Made by a program: the position numbers and the translations under genes. From positions 1 through 59,361 of the IMG/VR virus record IMGVR_UViG_3300042860_000909: a stretch of DNA of 59,361 nt. One strand, 5' to 3'. How positions within the stretch are numbered: position 1 is the first letter of the stretch; each line of letters opens with the position of its first letter. Below are positions 1 through 59,361 of this stretch, in pieces. Below the pieces are notes generated by a model, which saw nothing but the letters and a program-made list of their open reading frames with translations, was not told where the DNA came from and did no database searches. Source of the stretch: a virus.

Positions 1-167
1 TCCTGGGGTGTCTTGTCGCCCACCTGGATCACGAGCGCGGTGTTCTTGTCGCCGCCTTTGAACTCTTTTGGCGAGACCACGACCATCGAGTCCTGGGCGA
101 GCACGAAGCCGAGCATCTTGGAGATCTCGACCGGATCGCCCTTGTTCAGCAGCAGCGCAAACGAGGG
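1..167. repeat. Terminal redundancy, left copy
   Basis: Bases 1-167 match 59195-59361. There are five mismatches, at 6, 9, 32, 40 and 41; bases 42-167 (126 bases) are identical. The repeat lies inside one open reading frame that continues correctly across the join. It therefore reads as overlap of a circular or circularly permuted genome rather than as true direct terminal repeats, which would split the gene. The mismatches are frame-preserving (two silent changes plus Thr/Val and Val/Leu), more like strain variation than random error. Confidence 0.9.
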
Positions 168-3100
168 GTTCGTGTCGTCCAGATAACTGCCGACCTGCTC
201 TGCCAGGATGCCGTCGGTATTGAACTCGGCGAGCACCCGCGGCACGATTGTCCGCGCAACGCGATCGCTGATCGCAAGGCGCTGCGCAGGATCCAGCGAT
301 CGCCAGGTCTCGGTAAGGGCGGCGTTGTTCGGGTCTGGAGCGACCTCGAAAACAACGGCGCGACGCTTGGGGTCTAGTCTTTCTTGGGCGAGCTGGGTGC
401 GCTCGTATCGGTCGCGGATGAATCGTTCACGCTCCCCAGTTTGGAGCGGGCCAGATCGCCCAGCTTCTTGACCAGCGCCTTGCGATCCTTGTCCGACATC
501 TGCTGCATTCGTTTGTCGAATGCTTCTTGATCCAGATTCGGCTGCTGTGCGGAGTCGTTGTTCATCGTATCCCTCTTGCTTGAGAACCTTCTCGGTTGCG
601 CCTGCGTAGTCCTGGCTGGTCACGCTGAGCTTGACGCCCATCGCCTTGTAGAGCTCCTGCTCAGGGTACCAAATGAGTGCCTGCATGGCAGCCGGCGGGA
701 TCCGCTGGCCGTAAGCCTTCTCGACCTGAGCCACTGCCTTGCGCACGACTTCGCGCAGCAGGCGACGCTCGCCGCCGCTGGCGGGCACGTCCCTCGGCTT
801 GTCGAGCGACTGCACCATCGTGTCCGAAGCGAGTACGAGCTGCGACTTCTTGCGGGTACCAGCGTCGAATTCGGCGCGGTTGTTCTTGAAGTCTTTCTCG
901 TGGGCCTTGCCGACTTGGCGAGCGAGCTCGATCGCAGCATCCTGATCTTCTCGGGCGCGTGCCACCAGCTCTGCATCGAACTGATCGGCGTACACGCCAT
1001 CGGTGCCAATCTGATCGAGGGCGCCGCGCAGGCGCGCGAGCTGCGCCGAGAACTTCTCAGCATCGAATGCGCGCAGGCTACCGGTCAGCCGGCCGATGGT
1101 CCGCATGAACCACATGTCCATGGTGACCGGCTCGAAGTTGCCGTTCAGGTTGGAGTAGAAACCGAATCCGATCTTCGGACCGAAGACAGACGATCCGAGC
1201 ACCATCTCATCGATCAGCTCGCCGCCAGGCTCGAAGCCCGCACGGTTGAGCTCACCGATCGTGAAAGGAGTCACGAGGAACTGACGGAACAAGTCAATGC
1301 CCATCTCCTCGATGAGCGCGTTGGCCAGCTTGAAGTTGCCGACCATGACCGATGCCGAGTCGCCCTCGCCTACCTCCGGGTACTTGCCGGTCTTGCGGTA
1401 GGTGTCGTACTGACGCATCGTGAACTTGAGATTGTTCTCGACGTTCAGTCCCTGCGAGGTGATCGCCATCGCGAGGCGGAAGATCATTTGAGCGTTGCGG
1501 TCGCTCTGCAGCTCGGGGTACTTGACCGCGGCCATCGCAAGCGTGCGGGCGATCGTCTCGTCGTACCACTCGAGCGCATTGCCCGCGGAGCGGATCGCGG
1601 CCAGCGTCTCGGCTGCCATCAGCTTGGCGACGGTGTCCTGGTCCTCGGGGTTGGTGATGTCCAGCAGTCGCAGGCCAGAAGCGCGGCGACGGTCCTCGAG
1701 GAACTTGACGACCTCCGGGATGCCGCCCTTGAGCGGTGCCACGAAGGCGCGATCCTTGGGTTCGCCGGTCTGGTACTCGAGGGAGGTGGAAGCGAGCTCA
1801 GCGTCGCTGAGGCCTAGCTTCTTCTTGATCGCGGAGGCGATCTTCTTGTCGACCTTGGGCTCCTTCTCGAGCACCTCGATGACCTTGTCTGCATCATCGG
1901 AGCGGAAGGTGATGCGGTCGCCATCAACCTTGAATGGCTTGGCGACATCGCGCGCCAGGAAGCGGATGCGGTCGGCATCCTTGGTAAAGACAATGCGGTC
2001 CTTCTCGTCCTTGGTGTAATCGTACCTACCAGCACGGTTGGAGTACTGGATTACCGAGTCTCGCGACCCGCCAAGTTGACGCCCTTGCTCAGCGTTGCTT
2101 CCAGATCCCTGTTGAATTTCTCCCACTCGAGATCCGCCTTGAGCCTCTGCCCCGGCGTCGGCTTGACGACCGACTGTTGCTCGGTAGAGCTTGTCGTCGA
2201 TTTGACCTGCTTGGAGCTGTTGTTTGGTTGCATCGATAAGCCTCTCTTTCAGACCACCCATTATAACAGGCGTGATGTCATTGATGTCTTTAACTCGAAC
2301 AGCATTGCCCATGCCGCGTGAGTTGTCCACCACATGCAGTTTGAAGTTGGGGTTGTCGCCGAACTTCTCTTGTAGCTTTCGCACTACAGTGCTTGAGCCC
2401 GCATGTCCTTTAGCCAAAGCGTCGATAGGTACGGCGCGCCCGGTACGCTGAGCACGGGTAAGAACACCGTTGACTAAGGCGTCGACTGGATCACGGTACA
2501 CATAGGCGATCGCCACCTTGCGGCCGGAGTTGAGCGCGCTTTGGACATTGCGTTCGGCCTTGTCGTAGGTGGACAGCGTGCCGTCCAATACGGTGCTTGC
2601 GCGGTCCAACACTGGGGCAAGTAGCTCCTCGGCGCTTGACTTGCCGGCACCGCCACCGCCCGCCATGAAAACGACGATTTCGCCCTCACCAGGTTTAGCC
2701 ATGCGCTCTTCAAAGGTGCGCTGGATGAAATCGCTTACCGCCTCATGCACCTCAGGCGCGAGAGACCGATCAGCGCGGTACTCAGGAGACAGCTCGCGTG
2801 CGATGTCGGCATCCAGCACGCGACCGCCCTTGGCGCCTTTGAGCGCGCTGTATTCCTGCACCGCACCTTCGTAGTCGGTGTCAATACGTTCGCGCAACCT
2901 GGCCCCAATCTCGGGCTCTTGGACCCGGTTGCTGAACATGAAGTCGGATTTGTTGCCGTAGACCGGATTCTTGGCCAGGACCAATGGGCCGATCTGGATG
3001 ACTTCGTCAGCGGAGATCACAGGCTCCATGGTTGAGCGATCGTAGAAGTACGAGTGCCGCTCGGGGTCCATGCCGACCTGCACCCAGTCCTTGGACTTGA

Positions 3101-6100
3101 GCGCCTGGTCGGCCTTCATCTTGGCTTCGGCTGCGGTCGTCGGTTTCCACTTGCCCTCCATCGTTGCGATGGTGTTCTTCTCTTTGCCGGAGGCGATGCC
3201 AATGGCGCCTTTCTCGTTGATGCTGAACTGCACGTCCGTGGCAGAGGCCACGCTCTCGTAGCCGATCCGCGTGCCAGCTCCGCCGGCAACCAAGCTCTTG
3301 CGTGGTCCATGCACCGTCACAACCCATGTGCCGGTTTTGCTGTACGACGGGATGTCCAAACGCAGGCCAACAAGGTCGCCAGCCTTTAGCGTCTGGGACG
3401 GGAGGCCGTAGTAGGTGTCCTTGGTCGGGCTACCATCTTTCTCGGCATTGGTCTTTCTAAGCGCAGCAATCGCTTCTTCGGCGGTCGCCGGAGCGGGAGC
3501 TGTTTTGTAAGCCTCGACAGGCTTGTACTCGTTGACCAGGCGATCGTATTCCTGAGCGGTCATTTCGCCGGTCTTGACCTTCTCGGCTGCAGCTTGCAGC
3601 TCGGGCGTGCGCTTGATGACGTCCTTGAAGTCCATGCCGATGCGCGAACGCGATGACTCGGTGATGTCGGTCGCAACATCAGGCTTGAGGCCTTGCGCTT
3701 GCATGGCTTCGGCGTAGGCATCAGTCAGAAGACTGCGGGCACGTTCGACGTCCTTGATGTACTTGGACACGAACTCGTCGCCGTATTCCTTCTTGGCGCC
3801 GGTCACGATTTGAGTGAGCTTGTCGAGGATGACCTTGGCTACCCCGGCAAACTCCTTGTTGCCCATCTTCGTGCGCAGCTCTTCCCAGAAGTCAGCACGT
3901 TTGCTGACCGCCTGGGCCATCAGGGCTGGCGCTTCTTCCTCAAACTTGGCGTCGTCGTACCCGAACTCGGCCTGGAACTCACCCTTGTTTTCTTGGTTAA
4001 ACACCTCAAGCAATGCGGTGTTGAGCTGCTTGCGACGTTCAGCAGGCAAACTGTGCAGACCCTCGTGCATAGCAATCGACAAGGGTGCATCGTCCGCATT
4101 GGCGTCGATGAAGATGTGCTTACCGCCCAGGCGGTTGATGAATCCATTGGGCATGCCGGCTGGGTCACCTTTGACCGCACGGACGACGGTGAGCGTGTTG
4201 CCCATTAGGCGGGCAACCGTACTGGCTAGTCGCTGAGAGTCGTTGAGGTCGGCAGGAGAGACAGCTTCAACCGTTACACCGCGAAGCTTCTCAAGCTGGG
4301 TCTGGACGTTCTGAAGCGTTGTCGCGGGCGCAGGTAGTGCAAGCCTTAGTCCGGCACGTTCAGTATCAGACAGTTGGACTTGCGATCCGGCTGGCTGGGT
4401 TGTGCCAATGGTTGCGATACCGCCTTGTGCGGCACCTGCCATTTGGACTGCTTGTTGTCCTTGCGCTTCTGCTTGCTGGGCTTCAGGGGCTTGAGTGCCA
4501 AGTGCTGTCTCCTGGGTGTAGCCGGCCAATCGATACTTGCCGTTGGGCATCTGCTCAACAGACCACGACAAGTCTTTGAACATGCGCTGCCGGCTGGGTA
4601 GCGCCTGCTCCGCATCCATGCGCGTGACGTATCCGTCACCGCGTCGACCCGTCCAGATTTCGGTCGGGGTAATAGCATTGTTATCTTGTCCGATCGCGGC
4701 GTTCGTGCGGGCTAGCAGGTCCGCATCCGATGCGCGAGGGATCGGGCTCGTGCCCGTCAGATTGGCAAGTCGTTGAGGGGTTCCGCCTCGAAGAGCATCA
4801 TCTTGTTGATCGGATCCTCGAACTCCTCCGACAACTCCACCCGGCAACCCGGCGGCGAGATCAAGATCACGTCCTGCAGCATCCACGCCTCGTTGGTCGA
4901 GAGCACTCGTGCGTCCAGCGCCTCCTGCAAGTGGGGGTAGAGTTGAGCCTGGCGTGCTGACATCACTACCTCCGATGATGGCCGGCGCATCGGGCACCGG
5001 AATGACAATATCCACCAGGCCGGCGCGCTGAGTCGCTGAACCTGGCTCAGTGAAGTTGGTGAGGCGTGCTGCTTGTGCGGCCTCCTGTGCGCGGCTGGCG
5101 GCACCCAGTACGCTGAAAGGTGCGGAGGTAACGAGCGCCTGGCCCATTGCCTCGGGGACGCCCTCGGTCAGTTTGACGTTCGGGTCGACTGTCCTTGCGA
5201 TGACATTTCCACCGGCTTGTGTTCCGCCCTCCTCGAGCTGCTCGCCGATCAAGTCCTTGGCAATCAGCTTGCCGGCCCCTGCTGCGGTCAGCGCTTCCGA
5301 AGTGGCTTTTCCCAGACCTCGAGATGCGATCGCAGCCTCGGCGCCTGCAAAACCGAGCAGGCCGAGCGGCGCGGTGATAAGCGCTGCCATCCTGGCCTTG
5401 GCGGTCGAAATGTCTTTGATCGCCTGATCGGGCGCCTTGCCATCGGCAACCATGCGCTGGAAGTCGGGGTTCTTCTCCCAGACCGACAGCGGGGTTTGAT
5501 TCGGGTCAGTGAGCTTCTCGTAGACGCCGCCGGCAGCATCGCCGCCAGCCATGACCATGGAGGCGCCTACGCCGCCTGCAGTGGCCCCAGTGGCGCGTGC
5601 GCCTGCTTGTATCGCCCCGCCGCTGATCGCGTCGCTGAGGGCTACTGTGGGGCTCACACGGCTTGCTACGCCGACACCCGCGCCTCCCGCTGCGGCACCC
5701 AGACGCGATGCGCCCAAGACACCCAGGAACATGGGCACTTGCTTGGCGGCTTCGGAGATGGTGAGCGCGGGGCTCGTGACGAGCTGCACGACGGTTGCCG
5801 CGTACTTGTCGAAGAAGCCCTCTTCCTGCTGCACACGCTGGCGCAACTGGTCGCGCTGAGCCTTGAGCACGTCGCTCTCGGCAGCCTGCCATTCCTTCTG
5901 AGTCTGGCGTAGCGTCTCAGCGATGTCGCTACTCGGGGCGATGATGTTGATCGGGAGCTGAGCCAGGGAGATGGCGCCTTGCGATAGGCCCGAAAGCGTA
6001 TCGATTGCCCACTCGCCTGCGCTTCGAAACTCGTCCGCCTTCGCATCGCGGACCATGTCCTGTACGACTGGCCGATTCGTGCGCTGAATCATGTCATCCA

Positions 6101-6602
6101 GCGACGGAACCTTCTGCTCTTCCATCGACTGAGCGACCTTGGCGACGATCGGGCTCGAGGGCTTGGCCCGACCTGCGCGGACGTCGGCCGCCTGTTGTAC
6201 GGTCTGCGTACTGATCGGCCCGGCACCCAGCGAAAGGCGTTGATCAATCGATGCCTGGCGCTGCTCTGGCGTGGGCTGGTAGCCTTGCATGACACTGGGC
6301 TTAGGCGCTGGCTTGAGTGCGTCAGCGATGCGCGAAATCAACCCGCGGTTGTCTGCAGGCGGCGGCGTGCCCTGCATTGAAGTAGCCGCATCGCCGTAGT
6401 CGACCGTCGTGTTGTCGAAGGTTTGCGGGCGCTTGATCGTGGTATCAGCAAGGAACTGGCCGCGAACCAGGTCAATGTCTTCAGTCGAAACTCGAGGGGC
6501 AACAACCTCCTCGAAATATTGACGACGAGCCTCTTCCTGTTCTTCGTAGGAGAGGGCCTGGAATGCGGAACTTGCCGCTACGTCAGACCACTTCTTTGCC
6601 AT
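1..6602 (-). CDS. Giant polyvalent virion protein, N-terminal 2,200 residues (runs off window edge)
   Basis: ATG at 6602, just after the stop of the upstream gene; I read the frame open to base 1. It continues at 59194 and stops at 54001, giving about 3,931 residues. The N-terminus (1-50) resembles other phage polyvalent proteins. A Gly/Ala-rich hydrophobic stretch lies at about 280-370. A zincin motif HEGLH is at 846-850. A zeta-toxin-like P-loop kinase has Walker A GGGGAGKS at 1315-1322, followed by a YxxRDP segment. A conserved-looking helical region at about 1620-1840 has no domain I can name. Known family: polyvalent proteins are often co-injected with DNA and combine peptidase, kinase and ADP-ribosyltransferase-like domains. 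Inferred role: an ejected multifunctional protein counteracting the host. Last gene of the late operon. Confidence 0.93.
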   Translation of the reverse strand, partial: MAKKWSDVAASSAFQALSYEEQEEARRQYFEEVVAPRVSTEDIDLVRGQFLADTTIKRPQTFDNTTVDYGDAATSMQGTPPPADNRGLISRIADALKPAPKPSVMQGYQPTPEQRQASIDQRLSLGAGPISTQTVQQAADVRAGRAKPSSPIVAKVAQSMEEQKVPSLDDMIQRTNRPVVQDMVRDAKADEFRSAGEWAIDTLSGLSQGAISLAQLPINIIAPSSDIAETLRQTQKEWQAAESDVLKAQRDQLRQRVQQEEGFFDKYAATVVQLVTSPALTISEAAKQVPMFLGVLGASRLGAAAGGAGVGVASRVSPTVALSDAISGGAIQAGARATGATAGGVGASMVMAGGDAAGGVYEKLTDPNQTPLSVWEKNPDFQRMVADGKAPDQAIKDISTAKARMAALITAPLGLLGFAGAEAAIASRGLGKATSEALTAAGAGKLIAKDLIGEQLEEGGTQAGGNVIARTVDPNVKLTEGVPEAMGQALVTSAPFSVLGAASRAQEAAQAARLTNFTEPGSATQRAGLVDIVIPVPDAPAIIGGSDVSTPGSTLPPLAGGAGRTSALDQRGVDAAGRDLDLAAGLPGGVVGGVRGSDQQDDALRGGTPQRLANLTGTSPIPRASDADLLARTNAAIGQDNNAITPTEIWTGRRGDGYVTRMDAEQALPSRQRMFKDLSWSVEQMPNGKYRLAGYTQETALGTQAPEAQQAEAQGQQAVQMAGAAQGGIATIGTTQPAGSQVQLSDTERAGLRLALPAPATTLQNVQTQLEKLRGVTVEAVSPADLNDSQRLASTVARLMGNTLTVVRAVKGDPAGMPNGFINRLGGKHIFIDANADDAPLSIAMHEGLHSLPAERRKQLNTALLEVFNQENKGEFQAEFGYDDAKFEEEAPALMAQAVSKRADFWEELRTKMGNKEFAGVAKVILDKLTQIVTGAKKEYGDEFVSKYIKDVERARSLLTDAYAEAMQAQGLKPDVATDITESSRSRIGMDFKDVIKRTPELQAAAEKVKTGEMTAQEYDRLVNEYKPVEAYKTAPAPATAEEAIAALRKTNAEKDGSPTKDTYYGLPSQTLKAGDLVGLRLDIPSYSKTGTWVVTVHGPRKSLVAGGAGTRIGYESVASATDVQFSINEKGAIGIASGKEKNTIATMEGKWKPTTAAEAKMKADQALKSKDWVQVGMDPERHSYFYDRSTMEPVISADEVIQIGPLVLAKNPVYGNKSDFMFSNRVQEPEIGARLRERIDTDYEGAVQEYSALKGAKGGRVLDADIARELSPEYRADRSLAPEVHEAVSDFIQRTFEERMAKPGEGEIVVFMAGGGGAGKSSAEELLAPVLDRASTVLDGTLSTYDKAERNVQSALNSGRKVAIAYVYRDPVDALVNGVLTRAQRTGRAVPIDALAKGHAGSSTVVRKLQEKFGDNPNFKLHVVDNSRGMGNAVRVKDINDITPVIMGGLKERLIDATKQQLQAGQIDDKLYRATVGRQADAGAEAQGGSRVGEIQQGSGSNAEQGRQLGGSRDSVIQYSNRAGRYDYTKDEKDRIVFTKDADRIRFLARDVAKPFKVDGDRITFRSDDADKVIEVLEKEPKVDKKIASAIKKKLGLSDAELASTSLEYQTGEPKDRAFVAPLKGGIPEVVKFLEDRRRASGLRLLDITNPEDQDTVAKLMAAETLAAIRSAGNALEWYDETIARTLAMAAVKYPELQSDRNAQMIFRLAMAITSQGLNVENNLKFTMRQYDTYRKTGKYPEVGEGDSASVMVGNFKLANALIEEMGIDLFRQFLVTPFTIGELNRAGFEPGGELIDEMVLGSSVFGPKIGFGFYSNLNGNFEPVTMDMWFMRTIGRLTGSLRAFDAEKFSAQLARLRGALDQIGTDGVYADQFDAELVARAREDQDAAIELARQVGKAHEKDFKNNRAEFDAGTRKKSQLVLASDTMVQSLDKPRDVPASGGERRLLREVVRKAVAQVEKAYGQRIPPAAMQALIWYPEQELYKAMGVKLSVTSQDYAGATEKVLKQEGYDEQRLRTAAESGSRSIRQTNAADVGQGSQGAGQEAGRSGPLQTGERERFIRDRYERTQLAQERLDPKRRAVVFEVAPDPNNAALTETWRSLDPAQRLAISDRVARTIVPRVLAEFNTDGILAEQVGSYLDDTNPSFALLLNKGDPVEISKMLGFVLAQDSMVVVSPKEFKGGDKNTALVIQVGDKTPQ

Positions 6603-8132: not shown

Positions 8133-8819
8133 TTAACCTACGTTAGGACCCCAGAGACGGGCGCCGACGTTTGTGTTGTAGCGAGCGCGTTCGTCTGCGG
8201 CGAGCTTCTTTTGCTCCTCGTACTGCTTTTGCGCGCCATACCCTTGCATCGCCCCACCAATAAGCTGCGTGCCGCCGCTGATCAGTGCGGGTGCTGTGTA
8301 GGGACTGGACATAATCGTGCCAACTAGGCCTTTGCCGGCTGCGCCAGCAGCGCCAGCCGCCTCGGCGCCGAGAACGTTTAGACCTGTAGAGCTAGTAACC
8401 CACGGGCTTGCTGCTGCAGGGGCTGCAGTTGCCGCACCGGTGCCAGCCGCAGCCGCACCAGTTGCTGCGGATCCAAGCGCTGCGGATGCGCCTTGTGCGA
8501 CACCCCCAGAAATACCGGTGCCCAGCGCACTTGCCGCAGCGCCGAATTCACCCGCCGCAAGCGCTGATCCTGCGGTTCCAAGGCTAGACCATGCCGCCCC
8601 GACGTTGGCTGCCGCGCCCGAGAGGCCCGACAGACCTCCGGCTGCCGCTGCTCCAGACGTACCCATCGCACCCATCAGTGCTGCACCACCGAAGTAGACA
8701 AGCGCTGCACCGATCAGGATCTTTCCGAACTTGGACTTGGCGACTTTCTTAACAACGTTGCCAACACCTTTGACGACCTTGCCGATCGCCCTCGCTACGC
8801 CCTTGACAGCCTTAGCCAT
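8133..8819 (-). CDS. Putative ejected virion protein, Ala/Gly-rich and hydrophobic, 228 aa
   Basis: ATG at 8819 is chosen because GAGGTG lies just upstream and the ATG overlaps the stop of the acetyltransferase gene (ATGGCTAA). The N-terminus is a Lys/Val amphipathic helix (about 1-30), followed by a hydrophobic stretch (about 32-60) and a long Ala/Gly/Ser-rich low-complexity region with further hydrophobic segments. This looks like a membrane-active ejection protein. Function is inferred from position among internal virion genes. Confidence 0.83.
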   Translation of the reverse strand: MAKAVKGVARAIGKVVKGVGNVVKKVAKSKFGKILIGAALVYFGGAALMGAMGTSGAAAAGGLSGLSGAAANVGAAWSSLGTAGSALAAGEFGAAASALGTGISGGVAQGASAALGSAATGAAAAGTGAATAAPAAASPWVTSSTGLNVLGAEAAGAAGAAGKGLVGTIMSSPYTAPALISGGTQLIGGAMQGYGAQKQYEEQKKLAADERARYNTNVGARLWGPNVG

Positions 8820-9258
8820 GAGATGCACCTCGCACATAACTGAGGTTCAAGCTTTCGCGTGCGAAGCCAAGCCTCTTGAGAAAACGGACAAGCCTGGGAT
8901 CAGTGCCAGGCTCTAATTCGATGATGGCCAGCTTGATGCCAGACCTGCTCTTGACCCACTTCGCAAACTCGCGGAGCAGCGCAACTCCTGCACCCTTAAC
9001 CCGGCTGTAGTACAGCAAGACCGAGCACTGCAACTTCTCAAACCAAAACGACGGCTGCACGCATGCAGCGACCGCGGCGACTACCTGGCCAGCCTGCTCA
9101 GCCACCCACAAAAAGTGCGCGGGGTTGAGTAGCGTGCGAGCGGTTTCAGCCATTGCAGTGCGGTCGATCTTGACTGGCAGCGGATCGCGAGAGACGGATT
9201 CGACTGCGATGTCTACGATCGCGGGGATATCGTCAAGCTTTGCTTTACGGTATTCCAT
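8812..9258 (-). CDS. GNAT-family acetyltransferase, 148 aa
   Basis: Begins MEYRKAKLDDIPAIVDIA, the typical beta1-alpha1 start of GNAT N-acetyltransferases. An acetyl-CoA-site-like segment follows (GAGVALLREFAKW, about 90-102), then the C-terminal strand pattern (FLKRLGFARES). Length fits the family. The start overlaps the upstream stop as TAATG, so translation is probably coupled. Acetyltransferases are a recurrent guest in podovirus virion-gene runs; the substrate is unknown. Confidence 0.88.
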   Translation of the reverse strand: MEYRKAKLDDIPAIVDIAVESVSRDPLPVKIDRTAMAETARTLLNPAHFLWVAEQAGQVVAAVAACVQPSFWFEKLQCSVLLYYSRVKGAGVALLREFAKWVKSRSGIKLAIIELEPGTDPRLVRFLKRLGFARESLNLSYVRGASHG

Positions 9259-11798
9259 TACCCAGCCTGTTGAACAGCGTACGTTTGCTCAGCCTGTCCG
9301 CGCTTTGCCCAGTAGTTAGGGTCGTTGCGATCAATGCCAAACTCGTCAAGATTCTGCGGTGCGGGTTGTGGATTGTTGACTGCGTTATTGATGATCCCGC
9401 CTGCCGCTGGAGCTCCGGAGCCTGCCGGTGTCGCCGGGGTTGCTGGGGTTGCCGGGCTCCCGCCCCCACCACTTGGAGGCGCCGATCTACCAGACACCCT
9501 GTCGTAATCGGCCGCAGTGAAGTTAGTGCCTAGTGCCTGGTTCCAAAGATTAACTTTCTGTTGCGAGGTCAGATTTGGAAACTGCTCAAGGTAAGCTACG
9601 CCCTGTGCGGTGCCGAAGTCAGCATTGCTTGCGCCAGACTTGATTGCGTTGTTAAGCGCCTGAGCGTTTGCGCCTGGGCTGACGGTACCGCCGGACGCAC
9701 CAGGGGCGGCGATTGTCGGAAGCGACGTGTTGTAGAACGTCGAGCCCCACTGCATGGTGGCGTTACCCGTATCGATGACGTTCTGGATCGCCGCTTTCTT
9801 GGCGTTAGCGTCCAGGTTCGAGTCTGCTTGAATAGCGTTGATCGCGTTTAGAGTCCCCGAGGCAAGGTTGGCGGCGAATGCTTGCGAGACGTTGGCGTCA
9901 TTGATTGAATCCTGCAGCTTCACGAGCGCGGTCTGATTGTCCCGGTCAAGCTGCGATTGCACAGCCTGAAAGTCTCGATTGGCTTGGGCAAGCGTTGTTT
10001 GAGCCGTGCGGTCAAGCGCAGACTCACCACGTTGGAATTCTTGCCTTGCCGTCTCAAGTGCCTGCTGCGCCGAAATATTCTTGTCGGCGATCATGATTTG
10101 CTGGGCACGATCAAGCTCGCCTTGCGTGGCTTGGAAGTCTCGATTGGCTTGCGCTAGATCAGACTGGGCCTGGCGGTCCAATTGCCCCTGCTCTCTCTGA
10201 AACTCTTGCTGACCGGTCTGCAGCTCTCTCTGAGCTTCAATCTGACGGTTAACAATTCCGGTCTGTTGTTCGCGGTCTAGCACTGACTCGCCGCGTTGGA
10301 ATTCCTGTCTAGCCGTTTCGAGAGCCTGCTGTGCGGAAATGTTCTTGTCCGCAATCATGATCTGTTGGGCTCTGTCGAGTTCAGACTGACTGGCCTGAAA
10401 CTCTCGATTAGCCTGAGCCAGGTCAGACTGTTGAGCGCGGTCAAGTTGGCGCTGCTCGGTCTCGAACGTTCGGCTTGCGGCATTCTCGCCACGGGTAAAC
10501 TCTTGCTGCTGCGCTTGCAAAGACGTCTGTTGCGTGCGATCGAGTTCCGCTTGAGCCGACTGAAAGTTTTGCTGCGCTGTCTGCAAAGCTTGCTGAGCAG
10601 CAATCGACTTATCTGCGAGCGCAACTTGTTGAGCCCGATCAAGCTCGTTTTGCGCGGACTGGAAGGTTTGCTGAGCAGATTGGAGCGAGGCTTGTTGAGT
10701 ACGGTCAAGTACGTTTTCACCACGCTGAAATTCTTGTTGCGCTTGCTGAAGCGCTTGCTGCGCAGAGATGTTCTTATCAGCAATCATGATTTGCTGAGCA
10801 CGGTCTAGGTCATTCTGACTGGCCTGGAACGTCTGAGCCTCGCGAGCAAGCGAGATAGCCTGGGCACGGTCGAGACCGTTTTGCTCAGCCTGGAATGACT
10901 GGCGTGATATTTCAAGCGCCTTGTTTGCTTCAATGGTCTTGTCGGCCAGCATGATCTGCTGAGCACGATCCTTCTCTGCCTGTGTAGCTTGAAAGTCTTG
11001 CGCAGCGTTCTGCAGCTCAATTTGTTGTACGCGGTCAAGCTGGTTTTGCGTAGCTTGAAATGTTTGCTGGCTCTCTTGCAAAGCTTTCTGATTGGCTCGA
11101 TCAAGCGCTGACTCAGCCGAAGTAAACCGTTGTCGAGCAAGTTCAAGCGCTTGCGTCGCTTCAATTGACTTGTCGGCCAAGGCTGTCTGCTGTGCGCGAT
11201 CAAGCTGTGCCTGCGCAGCCTGAAAATCTTGCGTTGCTTTATTCTGTTCGGCCGTAAACGCCTGGCCAGATACACGCTCACCGGTTTGAAACTGACGCTG
11301 CGCCAGGTTTTCTGCGGCCGTGAACGACTGCTCCGAACGCTGCAGACCAAATTTATTGACCTCTCCAGCATTAAACTGGCCAGCGGTGTTTTGCGCGCTT
11401 TGATTAGCCAGCGTGCGGTTGCTGTAAGTCTCAGCGTCTTGCTGAGCAATCGGCGTGATGCGATCAATCATGGCAGCAACGCCGGCGCCTTGAGCCATCG
11501 AGCTATTAACCAGACCACGCTGGTTCATATTCTGCATGGCCAGCGTACGCGCGCGCTGCATGAGCGGGCTGTCCTTAGCAAGTAACGACTCAACCTGACC
11601 AGCAGCGGTCTCGGTGGGACGATCAACTTGAGTGGTTAGGGGTGTATAAGTTTGAGGTGTGGGATTGACACTCATTGAAGTCTGCGTCGGGCTTGACGCA
11701 GCACTTGCTCCGCCGATAGCACCCGCGACGAGACCCGGCTGCGTAGCTTTGGGTTGTTGCGTGTCGAACGGATTTTGTACTGCAGCAGTGGTGGCCAT
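9258..11798 (-). CDS. Hendecad-repeat rod protein, 846 aa, putative internal or ejection protein
   Basis: Residues 199-616 are an almost unbroken 11-residue repeat. The triplet (L/K)DR recurs every 22 or 33 residues (15 consecutive units, 418 residues, 38 hendecads), filled with Gln, Ala and a recurring MIADKNISAQQAL segment. This is the signature of a right-handed hendecad coiled coil, roughly 60 nm long if one continuous helix. Residues 1-130 are Thr/Pro/Gln-rich. The C-terminus is globular and ends in a Pro/Gly/Ala spacer plus a short tail. RBS GAGG. It lies between lysis genes and internal virion genes. A DNA-ejection tube or tape-measure-like role is inferred. Confidence 0.9.
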   Translation of the reverse strand: MATTAAVQNPFDTQQPKATQPGLVAGAIGGASAASSPTQTSMSVNPTPQTYTPLTTQVDRPTETAAGQVESLLAKDSPLMQRARTLAMQNMNQRGLVNSSMAQGAGVAAMIDRITPIAQQDAETYSNRTLANQSAQNTAGQFNAGEVNKFGLQRSEQSFTAAENLAQRQFQTGERVSGQAFTAEQNKATQDFQAAQAQLDRAQQTALADKSIEATQALELARQRFTSAESALDRANQKALQESQQTFQATQNQLDRVQQIELQNAAQDFQATQAEKDRAQQIMLADKTIEANKALEISRQSFQAEQNGLDRAQAISLAREAQTFQASQNDLDRAQQIMIADKNISAQQALQQAQQEFQRGENVLDRTQQASLQSAQQTFQSAQNELDRAQQVALADKSIAAQQALQTAQQNFQSAQAELDRTQQTSLQAQQQEFTRGENAASRTFETEQRQLDRAQQSDLAQANREFQASQSELDRAQQIMIADKNISAQQALETARQEFQRGESVLDREQQTGIVNRQIEAQRELQTGQQEFQREQGQLDRQAQSDLAQANRDFQATQGELDRAQQIMIADKNISAQQALETARQEFQRGESALDRTAQTTLAQANRDFQAVQSQLDRDNQTALVKLQDSINDANVSQAFAANLASGTLNAINAIQADSNLDANAKKAAIQNVIDTGNATMQWGSTFYNTSLPTIAAPGASGGTVSPGANAQALNNAIKSGASNADFGTAQGVAYLEQFPNLTSQQKVNLWNQALGTNFTAADYDRVSGRSAPPSGGGGSPATPATPATPAGSGAPAAGGIINNAVNNPQPAPQNLDEFGIDRNDPNYWAKRGQAEQTYAVQQAG

Positions 11799-21275: not shown

Positions 21276-22307
21276 TCAGAGAGCCGAGCAGGCGGACTCG
21301 ATGCGTACCATCCAGTTTTCGTTCAAGCGCACAGCGTTCTTGTAGAAGTTGGCGCCGACGTAACCGAACTGGCCCATCGGGTTAGCGTGCGTGATCTGCT
21401 TGGCGGGCAAGTAGATCGGCTCAATTGCGCCCATGCCTTTGAGAGCGACCTGGCCCCATGCCTCTTGTGCAACGACCATGGTCGGGTACACGTCAGCCGT
21501 GGTGCCGGTGGTGCCACCGTTGGACAGGAACGTGCCTGCCGTGATGGATCCGCCTGCCGAGAGGAAAGGCTTGAAGTAGGGGCTGGTGATGATGCGATAA
21601 CGCTCGATCGTGCCGATCTCACGCTCATGCACGGGCTTTTGCTGACCGTAACGAGCAACCGGCACGAAGCCAGTCAGGTTACGGAAGTCAGCTTCCATGT
21701 CCGTGTGGATGAACACGAGGTAGCCAGGCTCGATTGCGCTGGTGTTGAAGTTCACCGACGCAGCAAGCTTTTCAGTCACGAGCTGAGCGTGAGCAGACTC
21801 GAGCTGACGAGCAGCTTGACGAAGCTTGTTGAGAGTGATTGCGGTGTTCACCGAAGCACGCGCGGTGCCGTTGGCGTAAACCACATTGGTGCCACCACGA
21901 ACCACGCCGTAAGCAATGAGTTCTTCCAGGCTGGCCATGTGCTCGCCAACGAGCTTGACCATATCAGCGGGGATGTCGTCCTCGTACATGGACTCAGCCT
22001 TGCGCGAGAGCTTCATCAGCACGCCGTACTGCTGCAGGGTGACCTGCACGTCCTGGTATGTGATGGTGCGCGAACCAGGGGTCACACCTTCTTGCAACAA
22101 GTAGTTGCTAGCGGTGATGCTGGGCGCGCCGTTAGAGCCTGCGTCGATAGGAAGAGCCCGGCGGAACACAACCGTGTCGGTCTTGTTCTGAGGGACTTGC
22201 TTTTGCATACCGAAGGTAGAGAGCACTTTAATGGGCATGGCGTGCTTGAGCATTTCGCGCTCGGCCATGATGAGGTTCCGCGAAGGAACTAGGGAGTAGG
22301 TTTGCAT
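21276..22307 (-). CDS. Major capsid protein, N4-gp56 family, 343 aa
   Basis: Starts MQTYSLVPSRNLIMAEREMLKHAMP and continues with the KTDTVVFRRALPID and EGVTPGSRTITYQDVQVTLQQYGVLMKLSRKAE segments, typical of N4-gp56-type HK97-fold capsid proteins. ATG at 22307 with AAAAGG upstream. A TTG two codons earlier is in frame but less likely. It follows the scaffold gene directly, forming the icosahedral head with it. Confidence 0.94.
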   Translation of the reverse strand: MQTYSLVPSRNLIMAEREMLKHAMPIKVLSTFGMQKQVPQNKTDTVVFRRALPIDAGSNGAPSITASNYLLQEGVTPGSRTITYQDVQVTLQQYGVLMKLSRKAESMYEDDIPADMVKLVGEHMASLEELIAYGVVRGGTNVVYANGTARASVNTAITLNKLRQAARQLESAHAQLVTEKLAASVNFNTSAIEPGYLVFIHTDMEADFRNLTGFVPVARYGQQKPVHEREIGTIERYRIITSPYFKPFLSAGGSITAGTFLSNGGTTGTTADVYPTMVVAQEAWGQVALKGMGAIEPIYLPAKQITHANPMGQFGYVGANFYKNAVRLNENWMVRIESACSAL

Positions 22308-22313
22308 GATCAA

Positions 22314-28918: not shown

Positions 28919-29221
28919 CTAACTTGACGCGATGACCGCGACTTTGTGTCCGGGCACAACGCCCAAGTACTCGGTATTGCCGGCCATCATGCGCATCGAT
29001 GTCGCGCTAGCGGTCGGGTTTGAGCCAAACAAGACGCGACAATTCGCGTCGGTATGAATGCGGATGAACCGCGTAGCATCTGAAAACGCTGCAGACTGCG
29101 CAGAGGTTGCGCCAATCGACACCTGTTGATGAGCAACCCACGGCATTTGCCCAGCCATAACCTGTGCGCCAGGGCCGCTTCGCGAGAGCTCAACAAACTC
29201 GGTGATCTCAAGCGTAGCCAT
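28919..29221 (-). CDS. Small structural protein, 100 aa
   Basis: Beta-rich, with segments FIRIHTDANCRVLFGSNPTAS and MMAGNTEYLGVVPGHKVAVIAS, a pattern shared by small virion proteins located after portal genes. The start overlaps the portal stop as TAATG. Probably a head-fibre or decoration protein; function inferred. Confidence 0.78.
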   Translation of the reverse strand: MATLEITEFVELSRSGPGAQVMAGQMPWVAHQQVSIGATSAQSAAFSDATRFIRIHTDANCRVLFGSNPTASATSMRMMAGNTEYLGVVPGHKVAVIASS

Positions 29222-53580: not shown

Positions 53581-54004
53581 GCGCTGGCTACAGAACTGCG
53601 GCAAGGAGCCGAGCCCGGAGAATCTGTCAGTCCAGATCGGCTGCCACATCGAGGAGATGTGTGAATTCTTGCGAACGCTTGAATGCGTCGACATGCTAGC
53701 CAGCAAGGACTTGCGTAATGCCATCCACGACCTCGAGTACATCGGCTCGCTCGCCAAGTCCCGCACCAAGATGATTGTGTTCAAGGAAGGCGCCAGGGAA
53801 GCCGCATTGGACGCTCTGTGCGACGCAGACGTCACGGGTAATGGTGTGGCTTACCTGGCCGGCATGAACAAAGCCTTGGCCGATCTGATGGTTCTGAAGG
53901 CCAACGACGAAAAGCTGGTCGATGGCAAGCCAGTGATATTGCCGGGAGGCAAGATCGGCAAGCCCGAGGGCTGGAAGCCCCCGGACCTGTCGCCCTACGT
54001 CTAG
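53555..54004 (+). CDS. MazG-like pyrophosphohydrolase-like protein, 149 aa
   Basis: LSVQIGCHIEEMCEFLRTLE (EExxE-like helix) and the C-terminal NDEKLVDGKPVILPGGKIGKPEGWKPPDLSPY, a signature of phage MazG-like/phosphoribosyl-ATP pyrophosphatase-like proteins. May hydrolyse abnormal or alarmone nucleotides. Ends in the CTAG shared with the giant gene's stop. Confidence 0.85.
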   Translation: MGNNFLRTRRWLQNCGKEPSPENLSVQIGCHIEEMCEFLRTLECVDMLASKDLRNAIHDLEYIGSLAKSRTKMIVFKEGAREAALDALCDADVTGNGVAYLAGMNKALADLMVLKANDEKLVDGKPVILPGGKIGKPEGWKPPDLSPYV

Positions 54005-57000
54005 GGTTTGCGGGGTGCCTCAAGGCTCTTGAGGTATTCCCGGTTCACCTCGGTAGCCATCTTGTCGCGCTCGGTCTGGATCTGCTTGCGCTCTAGGTTC
54101 TTCTGGGCATCAGTCATCTTCTGATCTCGGATAATCTGAATCTCAGCCTTGCGCATTGTCGAGGTTGCGTTGTTGTAGGCATCAGCTAGTGAAGCCAAGC
54201 CAAGCAGTCGCTTCTCGTCGTCCGTCATCTTGGGCTCGAGTCCAACACGCGCTTGCTCTTTTACCTCATCGACAACCTTCTTGATTTCACGCACGCGCTC
54301 GCCAGCCTTGCGGATGTTCGCGCCTTCGTCCACCTCGCCATAGAACTTGTTTAGCACGGGGATCTTGGCTGCTTTGATGTCCTTGTCGTCGCCTGTCATG
54401 GCTACCATGGAAGATCCCATCTGCTCGATGAACGAACCCAGGCCGCCGGTCGTTGCACTGATCAGGGTTTGGATGGTTCCAGGCGTGACCGAGGTTTCGA
54501 CGCCTGCAATGCTTCCCGCCTTGGCCTCGTTGCCACCGCCTAGCCTGTTCAACGCGTCGGCAATTTTTGCCGGCACGGTTCCTTGCTGGCTGGTACACAT
54601 GCGCTCAGAATCTGGCCTCTTGTCAAACGGAGACTTATCGGGTGATGAGCGATCGCCAAAAGTATTGCGCTCGGACACGAGCTGGATCGGCAGGTCGGTA
54701 ATTGTTGGCATCACTGCCAACAGTACTTGCACGCCGTCGGTTGGATCAAACGATCCGCCGAACGGGTTGATCGAGCCAAACACGACCGAGGTCATGTGCA
54801 GCGCTGCCTTGGTGGGTGTCAGCCCGCGCTTGGGGTCCTGCTGGTTGCGAACCGTATCAGCAATGACATACCCCAGGTTCGGAAAGATGTTGAATCCGAA
54901 CTGAATCGGGATCGTGAAGTACCGGCCGCGCTTACCCACGCGCTGTATACCGTCGGCCAAAGGCCCACCCGGCGGCAGCATGATGACCATGTTGCGCTCT
55001 TTGACGTAGCCAGGGATCTTGTCCCAGTAGGCTTCGCCGTCGTCGTCTTCGCCCCCCGCAGAAGCCCCGTAAAAGGCCAGCATGGCGCCGATACCGGCAA
55101 CCCCTGCCATGGCTCCAGCCACAGCCGGTGAGCGCAGCACGCGCGCGAATTGGGTCGTTCCCTGGACCGCTGCGTTGTAGAAAAGGTAGAGGTTGTTGAG
55201 CGCACCGCCCCACTCGCCCTTGCGGTTGAAGTTGGTTGTGCCTTCCTTGGCAAGCTTGGCGGCTTCCACGCGGGTCTTGCCGCTTTGCTTGGCCGCAGAG
55301 TAGAGCGCAAACCGGGTTGCATTCTCGGACGCAGCGCCCAGGAACTCGAGGCTCTTAAGCGTCAGCCTAGCAAGCTTGTAGGCGCGAGCTGCTTTGATTT
55401 TCTCGATCGCATCGCGAGGTTTGACGCCTGCTGCCAGCATTTCGTTGCGCAGGTCTTTCTGAATATCCTCAAGACCGCGGATGTAGAAGCCACCCGTGAT
55501 CCCGCCAGCGTTGCGGAATTCCTGGTAGAGCGGACTGGTCTGGACGCCGAGCTCGGACTTGGAAGACTGAACGAGCGCTGCGCCGTAGGAAGCCAGGTAC
55601 CGGGCAAGACCCTTGGGGCCAAGCTCCGCAAGCGCAGCAGTCGTACCCGACCACAAGGCATCGCGTGGAATGTTGACCGCAGCGAATGCCGGGTTGTAGC
55701 GGGTGAGCATGTTGCGCATCCAGCTATTCCACCAACCAGACATTGCGACGACCGCACGCTCAAATCCGCTCGTCTCATCCTTCCATGCCTGGCGCAAGGC
55801 ACGGGCAAGATCCGGGTCAGCAAGCTTGATATAGACCTGCTCACCACCGACCTTGACGCCGATCGTGTCTTCGCCCTTTTCGATCTGCTTGGTGTACTGC
55901 ACAAGGCCAGTTGCCTTGTTAAAGGCTGGCTTGCTGCGCTCGACGTCCACGTCCCACAAGTCGGGGTCCGGGTTTGACAACACGAAGTCCAGCAGCACCT
56001 TGCCGACGTCGTTTTTCTCGACGCGCATTACCACGCGCTCGTAGTCGCGGATCACGTTCTCGATCAGATCGGACGCACGCGAGCGGCGGCCTAGTGCGCG
56101 AATCGTTTCCTTGCCGCGGATGTTGACGCCACGGCCAACGCCTGGACGCATGCGCCCTTCGTCGTCCACGTTCTCAAGGCCGCGCAGTGGGATGTAGTTC
56201 TGGTACGCGCCATCAATTGCGGTGAACTCGTCTTGCGTGATCAAGCCCTCGGCGAGCATGATCTGGCGAGTGGTCGAAGCAATCGTCATCAGGTCTCGGT
56301 GCAGTTCTTCGTACTGCTGCGCTTTGGGTCCAGACTGGACCTGCTGCAGAATTGTGTTCGCGTCACCAGTCTTCATGCCAGAACCACCGTCAGGCATGCG
56401 CTGGTTGATGCTGGCGATGTAGTCGTTACGCTCCTCGGCGTGCTTGGCGTAGGCGTAGAGCGCAAGCTCATCGAGGTCGATGTCGTAGCGCACTGCCTTG
56501 TCGATCATCGGCTGCATGACGTTGTTCTTGAAGTCGTCCATGGCAGCCTGAATCCGGCCAGGCATCAGCGTATTGGCGTCGTAAAAGTTCTGCGCCTCGC
56601 CGACGGTACCGCCCTGCTCTTTCACTGCATCGAGTACGCGCTTCATGCGAAGCGCGTCATCTTGCAGAGCGCGCCTTGTGTCGTCGGTCATCGATGGCGC
56701 CGGCAGCGTGAAGCGAGAGCCGATCACGCTCAGACGCTGGCGACGGTTGCTGAATGCGGGTGTATCTGCCAGCCCTTCAGGCGACGATTCGGCCCGGTAG
56801 TTATCGCCAATCCAGCGCATCAAGTCCATGTCGCTCTTGACCTTGCGATCAGCAATCATGGAGCGCAGTTTCGGCGCTACGGCAGGCCAGGGCGTGAAGA
56901 ACTTATTGAACGGACGACCAGCCTGTGATAACATCTGTGATGTGGATGCGCTGGATGGAGTTACCGGGACAGGCCCGGAACGTTGAGATCCAGATTCATC

Positions 57001-59361
57001 CACCACCCCAACATCCGGTCGACCTGTCAGTGCAGGCTTGGCCAGCGCCAGATCCACATAGCGAGCGGCGCCCTCGTTGATCCTCCGAAGAATCGTGTCC
57101 GCGTTGCGATCGCCTGGATCGACAATGCGGCGCTGGTATGCCGAGTTGATGTACGCGTTACTGCGCGAATTCGAATCGGCCACCGTGATCGGAACAAAGA
57201 TCGCGCCAATGTCACCCGTCATGGGTAGCACGAGCTCCTTCTCGTTGGCAGACTGCCTGCTCTGCAGAACAAGCGCCGGGCGATACAGGCCACGAACAAA
57301 CTGCTCAGGCGTAATGCTGGCGAACTCCTCGGCGTGCTTGTCGACAAACACCTTGCGGATGATGCTCGGCGCGATCTGCAGGTCCTGGGTGCTGGCGCCA
57401 AGCATGTTCATTACATGCGGAAGACGACCCAAGACGACGGGCTCGGGGTTCAAGCCGTAAGACGGATCGGCGCGTAGTCGATTGATCGCACGCGTGAGCG
57501 CCCTGGCGCCGTTGCGGATGTCCGCCTCGAGCGCGCTTTGTGGCGAGACCTTGGGCAGCCTGCGGCGCTCGCTGGCGGCGATGCTGTTTTCTTCGACAAA
57601 ACCAGCATCGCTCAACGCTTTTTGCAGAGCTTTTGCGCCAGCAATTGAACCGGAGTCGTCAAAGCTTTTGTAGCCAGTTACAGAAGACAGTGTCTCGCGG
57701 ATTGTGCCTAGCGGAACAAAGCCCAGCAATTCGGCCTCAGTGCCTTGCGGGAACGAGTACCAGTAACCGCCCCACCTAGCGACTTGCCGACCGGCAATCT
57801 GCGGCGATCCATCGACCACTGCTCGGCCGCCGCGTTGCATTCGGTACGTCCCAAAGCCGCCTTCAGGTACCCTAACCTTGTAAACAAAAACCGTGTCCGA
57901 CTTCTGCGCCTCGCTTCCAGCCGCAGAGAAAGCGTCATCAGTCATTGAAAGGTAGGTGGCCAGGCCGCGAACTGACGCGGCGTTTGTATTGTCCAACCCC
58001 GGCATACTGGCAAGTCGCACAACTGTGATCTCGTCGCCTGGCTTGGCGTCAAAGACATCCGGCTCTTCGATTGGCGCCAGAGCGGACCGATTGCTGAATG
58101 CGACTTCGAACGGGGAACTGACGTCCGCTTCCTTACCAAGCTCGCGAGCAAGCTCGTCCTTGTACATCGGTGCGGTCGATGACCAGACCGGGCTGTCTTC
58201 GAACTGGGCGTAGACCTCCGGCATCATAGCCTTGAGCATTCGCGACCATTCGGCGCCATCCATCCGGCCAGAAGGTAGCGAGCGGTTGACTGCGATCTTT
58301 TCAGCGTCGTTCAGCACACGCTCAGCAGGTGGCACGATGTCGTTCGTACGCATGCGAGTCTGGCTTCCGAGTTGCTGAACGCCGACCATGTGTTTACCCA
58401 ACAGGACTGCGACGCCTGAGGGGCCTGCGTCACGCGTCATGTAGCCATCAAACCCGGCATTCATGACCGCAAGCTCGAAGGCGTTCGCGCCGCGGTTGTT
58501 GCGCGCCAGGCGCTGGCTGTCGGCATCCATGTCGTACAGGTTCTGCAGCCTCACTCGGTGCGCGAAGCCGCCGACGCCGGCCTCTGGGTTGATGCCGGTA
58601 CCGCGATCAATGTAGAAGTAAACACGCTGCTTCAGTCGCTGGTCTGCACCTTCCAGACGAGTCATCTCGGCGCCCTTAAGGCCGGTGCCGTAGGCGGTGC
58701 TGAGTAGTGTGGTGCGGGACTGTCGGCTGTAGTGGTAGCCGACTGCAGATGCGGCGCCCTCTCGGGGCGCGCCGTACTCGGGTATTACTCCCCGAACTTC
58801 CTCTTCAGTGCTTCTTCCAACGCTTGCTGCGCTGGTTGCATCAAATCGGTTGCTGAACTCGATTCCTTCGGCTCTGAGTTCTTGCTCGAGGGCTGCGGTC
58901 GCTTCTGACCGAAGATCACGAGCCCGTTGCCGAAGTAGCGCTCTGCTTCCTCGTCCGTCATTGGTCGAACTGGCATAGTCGTACTCCTGTTTGCTTGGGA
59001 ATGCCGCGAATACTTCACGGGTCAGAACACTATAAGCTTTGTTAAGTTTTTGGTCAACAAGAATCGCAAGCTCGCTCGTCGGAACGTCCGAGAAGTTGAG
59101 CACCGTCATGCCGCCGTTCGCGTACGACTGGCCGCCGATCGGCTTCTCTCCGTTGACTTCGATCTCGCGAAGCTGGTTGTAGATCGCCTCGATCTCCTGA
59201 GGCGTCTTGTCGCCCACCTGGATCAGGAGCGCGACGTTCTTGTCGCCGCCTTTGAACTCTTTTGGCGAGACCACGACCATCGAGTCCTGGGCGAGCACGA
59301 AGCCGAGCATCTTGGAGATCTCGACCGGATCGCCCTTGTTCAGCAGCAGCGCAAACGAGGG
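54001..59361 (-). CDS. Giant polyvalent virion protein, C-terminal part (continues from base 1-6602)
   Basis: Same gene as 1-6602, residues about 2146-3931. The in-frame ATG at 59310 is internal, because coding sequence continues upstream across the join. A possible ADP-ribosyltransferase-like region begins GYHYS near residue 2353 and runs to about 2475. A long helical region follows. A segment near 3370 (NPAFAAVNIPRDALW) resembles large polyvalent-protein domain LPD38. A hydrophobic stretch lies near 3557-3585, and the C-terminal 100 residues are charged and helical. The stop TAG at 54001-54003 shares the palindrome CTAG with the stop of the convergent plus-strand gene. The kinase and peptidase motifs are in the other segment. 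Confidence 0.93.
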   Translation of the reverse strand, partial: PSFALLLNKGDPVEISKMLGFVLAQDSMVVVSPKEFKGGDKNVALLIQVGDKTPQEIEAIYNQLREIEVNGEKPIGGQSYANGGMTVLNFSDVPTSELAILVDQKLNKAYSVLTREVFAAFPSKQEYDYASSTNDGRGSRALLRQRARDLRSEATAALEQELRAEGIEFSNRFDATSAASVGRSTEEEVRGVIPEYGAPREGAASAVGYHYSRQSRTTLLSTAYGTGLKGAEMTRLEGADQRLKQRVYFYIDRGTGINPEAGVGGFAHRVRLQNLYDMDADSQRLARNNRGANAFELAVMNAGFDGYMTRDAGPSGVAVLLGKHMVGVQQLGSQTRMRTNDIVPPAERVLNDAEKIAVNRSLPSGRMDGAEWSRMLKAMMPEVYAQFEDSPVWSSTAPMYKDELARELGKEADVSSPFEVAFSNRSALAPIEEPDVFDAKPGDEITVVRLASMPGLDNTNAASVRGLATYLSMTDDAFSAAGSEAQKSDTVFVYKVRVPEGGFGTYRMQRGGRAVVDGSPQIAGRQVARWGGYWYSFPQGTEAELLGFVPLGTIRETLSSVTGYKSFDDSGSIAGAKALQKALSDAGFVEENSIAASERRRLPKVSPQSALEADIRNGARALTRAINRLRADPSYGLNPEPVVLGRLPHVMNMLGASTQDLQIAPSIIRKVFVDKHAEEFASITPEQFVRGLYRPALVLQSRQSANEKELVLPMTGDIGAIFVPITVADSNSRSNAYINSAYQRRIVDPGDRNADTILRRINEGAARYVDLALAKPALTGRPDVGVVDESGSQRSGPVPVTPSSASTSQMLSQAGRPFNKFFTPWPAVAPKLRSMIADRKVKSDMDLMRWIGDNYRAESSPEGLADTPAFSNRRQRLSVIGSRFTLPAPSMTDDTRRALQDDALRMKRVLDAVKEQGGTVGEAQNFYDANTLMPGRIQAAMDDFKNNVMQPMIDKAVRYDIDLDELALYAYAKHAEERNDYIASINQRMPDGGSGMKTGDANTILQQVQSGPKAQQYEELHRDLMTIASTTRQIMLAEGLITQDEFTAIDGAYQNYIPLRGLENVDDEGRMRPGVGRGVNIRGKETIRALGRRSRASDLIENVIRDYERVVMRVEKNDVGKVLLDFVLSNPDPDLWDVDVERSKPAFNKATGLVQYTKQIEKGEDTIGVKVGGEQVYIKLADPDLARALRQAWKDETSGFERAVVAMSGWWNSWMRNMLTRYNPAFAAVNIPRDALWSGTTAALAELGPKGLARYLASYGAALVQSSKSELGVQTSPLYQEFRNAGGITGGFYIRGLEDIQKDLRNEMLAAGVKPRDAIEKIKAARAYKLARLTLKSLEFLGAASENATRFALYSAAKQSGKTRVEAAKLAKEGTTNFNRKGEWGGALNNLYLFYNAAVQGTTQFARVLRSPAVAGAMAGVAGIGAMLAFYGASAGGEDDDGEAYWDKIPGYVKERNMVIMLPPGGPLADGIQRVGKRGRYFTIPIQFGFNIFPNLGYVIADTVRNQQDPKRGLTPTKAALHMTSVVFGSINPFGGSFDPTDGVQVLLAVMPTITDLPIQLVSERNTFGDRSSPDKSPFDKRPDSERMCTSQQGTVPAKIADALNRLGGGNEAKAGSIAGVETSVTPGTIQTLISATTGGLGSFIEQMGSSMVAMTGDDKDIKAAKIPVLNKFYGEVDEGANIRKAGERVREIKKVVDEVKEQARVGLEPKMTDDEKRLLGLASLADAYNNATSTMRKAEIQIIRDQKMTDAQKNLERKQIQTERDKMATEVNREYLKSLEAPRKP
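59195..59361. repeat. Terminal redundancy, right copy
   Basis: Second copy of bases 1-167 (see left copy). It ends exactly where the homology with the left end stops at the window edge, as expected when a circular map is written out linearly with overlap. Confidence 0.9.

Follow-up and report, generated by a model that had tools for sequence, protein, structure and literature searches.

A polyvalent phage protein of 3,931 residues with a kinase akin to gonococcal zeta-1 and a motif recurring at domain borders

The stretch of DNA analysed here, called the window throughout, is the IMG/VR virus record IMGVR_UViG_3300042860_000909 in its full length of 59,361 bases. Its source is most likely a podovirus-like phage; a freshwater origin is our guess from the sources of its relatives (Manatee Spring, Limnohabitans). 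Our subject is a giant gene on the minus strand, the last of a late operon that comprises terminase, portal, capsid, tail, tail-fibre-like and lysis genes. It spans the join of the sequence ends, which overlap by 167 nucleotides (window 1-167 = 59195-59361). The last 126 nucleotides of this end repeat are identical; the first 41 contain five mismatches, which alter two residues conservatively (T2188V, V2191L) and look like what strain variants leave in an assembled metagenome. The minus frame, starting with the ATG at 6602, is open for 2,200 codons down to position 3. Base 1 equals base 59195, and in the resulting circle of 59,194 bases the frame continues to the stop at 54001, which yields 3,931 residues without an internal stop. 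The original prediction, made from the letters alone, had described the same stop-free frame (6602 to 1, then 59194 to 54001) and had proposed translation across the joined ends as a check; both give this product.

The imperfect repeat with its five mismatches might suggest that assembly had fused two separate genes, but the chance of this is negligible. An independent contig, L003 (IMG/VR 3300034112_000462), spans window 11437-1 plus 59361-49197 without a break (99.96-99.99% identity). The complete open reading frame (ORF) of 3,931 residues, 99.92% identical at the protein level, lies in its interior, where there is no join, and has no stop. A contig of 58,431 base pairs, L005, likewise contains an orthologue of 3,884 residues (85-92% identical) without any join. 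An assembly artefact is thus ruled out by L003: the giant gene is real, single and intact across the join.

The protein is polyvalent, as its domain matches indicate. LPD38 and a kinase score above the Pfam cut-offs, and signatures of a zincin and of an ADP-ribosyltransferase (ART) are present (Table 1), which supports the earlier view of several activities in one polypeptide.

Searched against the PDB as a single sequence, the kinase domain matches the gonococcal zeta-1 toxin (E 2e-7). With a profile of 17 phage kinases, the zeta-1 entries 6EPH and 6EPG are the sole close matches (E 9e-20), collinear over zeta-1 residues 31-271. In zeta-1 two sequence blocks are swapped, and the catalytic Asp lies ahead of the P-loop (PMC5923241). 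The same holds here: D1266 is upstream of the P-loop, collinear with 6EPH, and the Walker A motif is found at 1315-1322, exactly where it had been placed. Because of the swapped order, positions 44-94 of the Pfam Zeta_toxin profile are skipped, the match covering positions 12-43 and 95-177. D56, K115, R175 and R181 of zeta-1 correspond to D1266, K1321, R1383 and R1389, and these residues are kept in 88-89 of 89 aligned rows. A canonical zeta/PezT enzyme, i.e., a UDP-N-acetylglucosamine (UNAG)-3' kinase, was considered and rejected: the Asp block does not follow the P-loop, and canonical zeta is absent from the PDB matches. What stands of the zeta-toxin-like kinase of the original prediction is a P-loop relative of the zeta family; its type is the block-swapped gonococcal one, not the canonical one.

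Most likely, to go by its sequence, the kinase moves a phosphate from ATP to a hydroxyl of a UDP-sugar. K59 and N75 of zeta-1 contact the lactyl group of UDP-N-acetylmuramic acid (UDP-MurNAc; PMC5923241). Position 59 is R in 83 of 84 phage forms and K in five plasmid or chromosomal forms; position 75, placed by sequence alignment, is S or A in 83 of the 84 and N in the five. Because the UDP-MurNAc contacts are replaced in the phage forms, the substrate is probably unlike that of the gonococcal enzyme. For the same two positions, the kinase is best classed as a sister subclass of the zeta-1 kinases rather than as a member. With a non-canonical type and altered contacts to the lactyl group of muramic acid, phosphorylation of UNAG, as formerly proposed, is no default reading. 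Nor would a kinase route against the cell wall be novel: Iyer et al. 2017 (PMC5512222) already described phage proteins that join a zeta-like kinase to MuF, and proposed that they weaken the cell wall.

Relatives of the kinase occur in at least 207 viral contigs. Their architecture was examined among 80 kept contigs, in which the kinase is either part of a large protein or the product of a solo gene of about 280-430 amino acids. In three inspected cases (L074:5737-6780, L117:5845-6768, L123:5893-6780) genes for terminase, portal and scaffold follow directly downstream of the solo gene. A genome scan for the kinase yielded at least three relatives among 591 candidates, and a collection of cultured phages contains it in one record only. 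The tree separates the phage forms in giants, the solo phage forms and the toxin-antitoxin-like forms; the last are one clade with a support of 98/100, though deep placements in the tree are unsure, the branches being long. An antitoxin for the phage kinase was not identified, although no systematic search for one was made.

A second characteristic of the protein is a short motif. [FY]SNR occurs five times, each time between domains, and FSNR is the most over-represented short pattern of the protein (4 seen versus 0.02 expected, p 4e-9, uncorrected for roughly a million patterns). In 31 non-redundant relatives, which are not independent of each other, [FY]SxR is found 33 times versus 10.0 in shuffles (maximum 20 of 200), permutations of the same composition reaching 6-21; the motif had been noticed first and was tested afterwards. 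No fewer than 27 of the 33 lie within 15 residues of the edge of a homology block, versus 22% of random positions, with a p-value of 5e-13 that is too good because the conserved motif itself helps alignments to end there. By this placement [FY]SxR marks domain borders in the clade. It is also a candidate processing site, at which the chain might be cleaved. In the fused giants that contain the motif, an HExxH domain is part of the same chain. About ten contigs (L055, L058, L059, L061, L062, L065, L067, L068, L069, L089) distribute the domains over a pair of neighbouring large genes. Such split pairs are mostly without the window-type zincin family in their contigs, L051 being the exception; the upstream gene, where enough of it was recovered, carries another HExxH, mostly LHEFKH.

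Among the relatives the modules are shuffled, split, deleted and inserted. L046 has the same domains in a different order. Compared with L005, the window has an extra block of 147 residues (2562-2708). L005 in turn contains a canonical ART-PolyVal-like cassette with YHGT (L005:18467-18907, ORF residues about 2824-2970), which is bounded by FSNR and ASNR, is missing in the window and sits exactly at the window's last FSNR junction, the insertion point being residue 3018.

The C-terminal module links the protein to known virions. It matches giants of Vibrio, Burkholderia and Stx-type podoviruses and of an uncultured phage, and it is homologous over its whole length to the LPD38 giants (phrog_14770/616). 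With gp69 of the Bcep22-like phage JC1 it shares 27% identity (E 1e-83; hidden Markov model 2.7e-145) in an alignment that extends to the very last residue, so that the Bcep22-like kinship suspected earlier is borne out for the C-terminal 900 residues or so. LPD38 itself had been sought near residue 3370, too far upstream of where Pfam puts it. Profile comparison with the C-terminal domain of the N4 virion RNA polymerase revealed no homology (probability 0.4%), and none was found with the giant of phage vB_Pun_Y3. JC1 gp69 was detected with 51 unique peptides by mass spectrometry of CsCl-purified virions (PMC9144972). Because of the homology to this virion protein, packaging of the 3,931-residue protein is likely. 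Ejection with the DNA, as claimed formerly, is what we infer.

The remaining domains are less easily named. The N-terminal region is partly conserved in L046, L047 and L060. In the HExxH domain, H846, E847, H850, E889 and E890 are invariant in 9 relatives. In BFVD its AlphaFold2 model (pLDDT 70) finds other polyvalent, lytic transglycosylase and PolyVal-ART proteins of phages, with E values from 1.6e-16 to 8e-4; of the zincin claimed earlier, the position of HEGLH, the signature and the phage relatives hold, and a solved structure to match is missing. Residues 990-1212 recur in more than 20 phage contigs and in CRP-9 gp54. The GYHYS region at 2353-2480, which had been taken as ART-like, retains an invariant H/Y/E pattern, from which the catalytic Tyr and Glu are tentatively assigned; it has no Pfam match, and neither this region nor the zincin, searched as profiles, matched any PDB sequence. 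The MuF-C match is stronger in the relative L006 (E 5e-5).

Table 1. Features of the giant gene and its product, and late genes of the window (residues refer to the 3,931-residue protein)
Feature	Residues	Window position	Strand	Remarks
Giant gene, codons 1-2200 and part of 2201		1..6602	-	ATG 6602; open frame; uninterrupted in independent contig L003
Giant gene, remainder of codon 2201 to stop	2201-3931	54001..59194	-	Open frame; L003
N-terminal region	1-640	4683..6602	-	Ala/Gly-rich hydrophobic stretch, transmembrane-like window at residue 407 (hydropathy scan)
HExxH (zincin-like) domain	764-987	3642..4313	-	HEGLH 846-850; E889/E890 invariant
Conserved domain	990-1212	2967..3635	-	Weak Pfam Phage_L5_gp82 / phrog_586 match
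FSNR	1223-1226	2925..2936	-	Junction motif
Gonococcal zeta-1-type kinase	1235-1480	2163..2900	-	D1266, K1321, R1383, R1389
YSNR	1520-1523	2034..2045	-	Junction motif
Conserved domain	1590-2070	393..1835	-	50-59% identical in many split-gene relatives
FSNR	2314-2317	58846..58857	-	Junction motif
ART-like domain	2335-2480	58357..58794	-	H2355, Y2393/Y2395, E2441 invariant
FSNR	2567-2570	58087..58098	-	Junction motif
Cassette	2571-2708	57673..58086	-	In window, L062, L088; cleanly absent from orthologue L005
MuF-C (PBECR, RNase-like) domain	2831-2915	57052..57306	-	Below Pfam cut-off, E 0.033
FSNR	3015-3018	56743..56754	-	Junction motif; insertion point of L005 cassette
C-terminal module	3029-3931	54001..56712	-	Common to giants of JC1 (gp69), Vibrio 1.205.O, Stx-podoviruses
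LPD38	3591-3815	54352..55026	-	Pfam PF18857, E 3e-18
GNAT acetyltransferase gene		8812..9258	-	Cluster preceding giant gene; same order in phage vB_Pun_Y3
Major capsid protein		21276-22313	-	Late operon
Portal		29221-31419	-	Late operon
Terminase		31421-32941	-	Late operon

We consider it rather probable that we are dealing with a single polyvalent protein that is packaged, ejected with the DNA and delivers exchangeable effector domains. The whole chain would reside in the capsid, with the C-terminal module of about 900 residues, including LPD38, as its virion-associated part, and would enter the host together with the DNA. The set of effectors thus delivered would comprise a zincin-like peptidase, an L5 gp82-type domain, the zeta-1-type kinase, an ART-like and a MuF-C-like domain. 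In the kinase, which has K1321 in its P-loop, D1266 would serve as the base, R1383 and R1389 would contact the phosphates, and an ATP phosphate would end up on the hydroxyl of a UDP-sugar. Such phosphorylation might drain the precursors of the wall or of lipopolysaccharide early in infection. The resident HExxH peptidase may cut at [FY]SxR and so free the domains. Taken to its end, this is a self-cutting effector polyprotein: a zincin, in cis or from the neighbouring gene, cuts [FY]SxR and releases enzymes, among them a phage-specific zeta-1-type kinase with a new UDP-sugar or nucleotide specificity, as an ejected weapon. This extended version is tentative and, in our judgement, rather doubtful.

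Several observations speak against these ideas. The AlphaFold2 model of the zincin has no fold match in the PDB. Among solved folds, Foldseek ranks MbcT first (E 0.07, probability 0.91) and 6KYF fourth (E 1.0) for the ART model; we take MbcT to be ART-like and 6KYF to be the anti-CRISPR AcrIF11, presumably an ADP-ribosyltransferase. These matches are weak, and the assignment of residues 2335-2480 as an ADP-ribosyltransferase is weakly supported. The replacement of K59 by R and of N75 by A or S in the phage clade means that the kinase may act on something other than a peptidoglycan precursor. FSxR is not enriched in giants outside the clade (F116, USP_25, Tunturi_5, DC33, Y3, N4, CRP-9, MW202640), and in the close orthologue L005 some junctions are without the motif. 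Of course, the giant could also serve in virion structure or assembly and not be ejected, remaining in the particle or in the cell that made it: packaging is derived only from homology (PMC9144972), and ejection is so far conjecture for the family. We think this improbable, since the enzymatic domains are of host-modifying types, the N4 virion RNA polymerase, an unrelated giant of similar size, gets ejected (PMC12633501), and other polyvalent proteins with LPD and ART domains are interpreted as injected (PMC5512222). To be taken more seriously, if still well short of an even chance, is the view that the kinase is not a wall poison but phosphorylates another nucleotide or nucleotide sugar, be it for phage metabolism or against host defence. 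The lost lactyl contacts, the separation of the phage forms from the toxin-antitoxin-like ones in the tree, the position of solo copies directly ahead of terminase and portal genes in three phages and the precedent of AvrRxo1, which phosphorylates NAD (cited in PMC5923241), are all in line with it. The four named catalytic and phosphate residues are nevertheless all kept, and the only solved close relative, zeta-1, is a UDP-sugar kinase.

The closest call concerns the motif. With chances that are nearly even, [FY]SxR goes back to recombination, as the remaining boundary of a cassette, or is neutral linker sequence, rather than a protease site. The Ser codon is AGY at 39 of 46 motif sites, which hints at common descent; the cassette inserted in L005 has the motif, or a close variant, at its start and at its end; and some junctions lack the motif, the domains being retained. 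Yet the 46 sites comprise 34 different 12-mers and all kinds of Arg codon, and F/Y, S and R are fixed while the third position varies freely, a pattern suggestive of selection at the protein level. The presence of HExxH in cis in the fused motif giants, and in the upstream gene of the recovered split pairs, also fits a processing site better than a mere boundary. Delivery of exchangeable effectors by an ejected polyvalent protein remains the reading we prefer.

What appears to be new here is the zeta-1-type kinase subclass with its altered pocket and the border motif; the polyvalent kind of protein as such was known, as PMC5512222 documents. For the subclass, the pocket and the motif we found no paper in the literature searched, which excluded most subscription journals. 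Since polyvalent proteins became known in 2017, their division into separate effectors had been explained only in general terms, by suggested processing through zincins. The recurring border motif offers an exact candidate site for the processing of a giant chain. The kinase ties a characterised toxin mechanism, the drain of UDP-sugar wall precursors, to a radiation in at least 207 viral contigs, and, given the fixed change in its substrate pocket, it lends itself well to the search for a new substrate.

Some other genes of the window may be mentioned. A tail/baseplate-like gene for 683 residues (24189-26240) is situated in a stretch whose G+C content is clearly lower, 0.45 versus about 0.57, and was perhaps acquired recently. 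A protein of 216 residues (34464-35114) matches phrog_3704, labelled ferredoxin (E 3e-85). Window 49859-50923 belongs to a Cas4-domain exonuclease family (phrog_1990, E 3e-109) and adjoins Sak4-like and SSB genes; by these assignments they form a recombination module.

Among known systems, Pseudoalteromonas phage vB_Pun_Y3 ('Poorviridae') is similar in gene order. Its portal is 32% identical, and homologues of window 9258-11798, of the GNAT gene and of 8133-8837 (E 8e-9, 4e-11 and 9e-14) stand in the same order just before its giant of 3,421 residues. This giant, however, is built of ddrB-ParB, LPD5, LPD1, ART and methylase domains, and no similarity between it and that of the window could be detected. 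It was published, as ORF30, as the counterpart of the N4 virion RNA polymerase, based on PSI-BLAST (PMC11654794). The Pfam matches of ORF30 (L038:1148-11413) are to ddrB-ParB, ART-PolyVal, LPD5, LPD1 and methylase; an RNA polymerase domain is not among them, which makes the published label look doubtful. The N4 enzyme itself, gp50, resembles the protein described here in being a giant (about 3,500 residues) encoded at the end of a virion operon, with an HExxH domain and a large helical C-terminal part, and gp50 is ejected; the C-terminal module, however, has no sequence homology to it, and no RNA polymerase domain was found in the 3,931-residue protein.

Iyer et al. 2017 (PMC5512222) likewise describe polyvalent proteins that combine zincin, ART, MuF-C and LPD domains in one chain, and zeta-like kinases are noted there; the searched passages of that paper mention neither the zeta-1-type subclass with its phage radiation nor [FY]SxR junctions. 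Gonococcal zeta-1 (PDB 6EPG/6EPH/6EPI) has the block-swapped order and the D56/K115/R175/R181 set in common with the phage kinases, which differ by R at K59 and A/S at N75 and are housed in giants or encoded as solo phage genes. A further parallel is found in the DarB-like giants of Bcep22-like phages (Lessievirus). JC1 gp69 differs in having lytic transglycosylase, methylase, helicase and LPD3 domains, lacks the junction motif and is not detectably related outside the C-terminal module. It shares, however, the LPD38 module of about 900 residues and the same C-terminus, and it is likewise the last large gene of the virion module, preceded by a GNAT gene and virion-associated genes.
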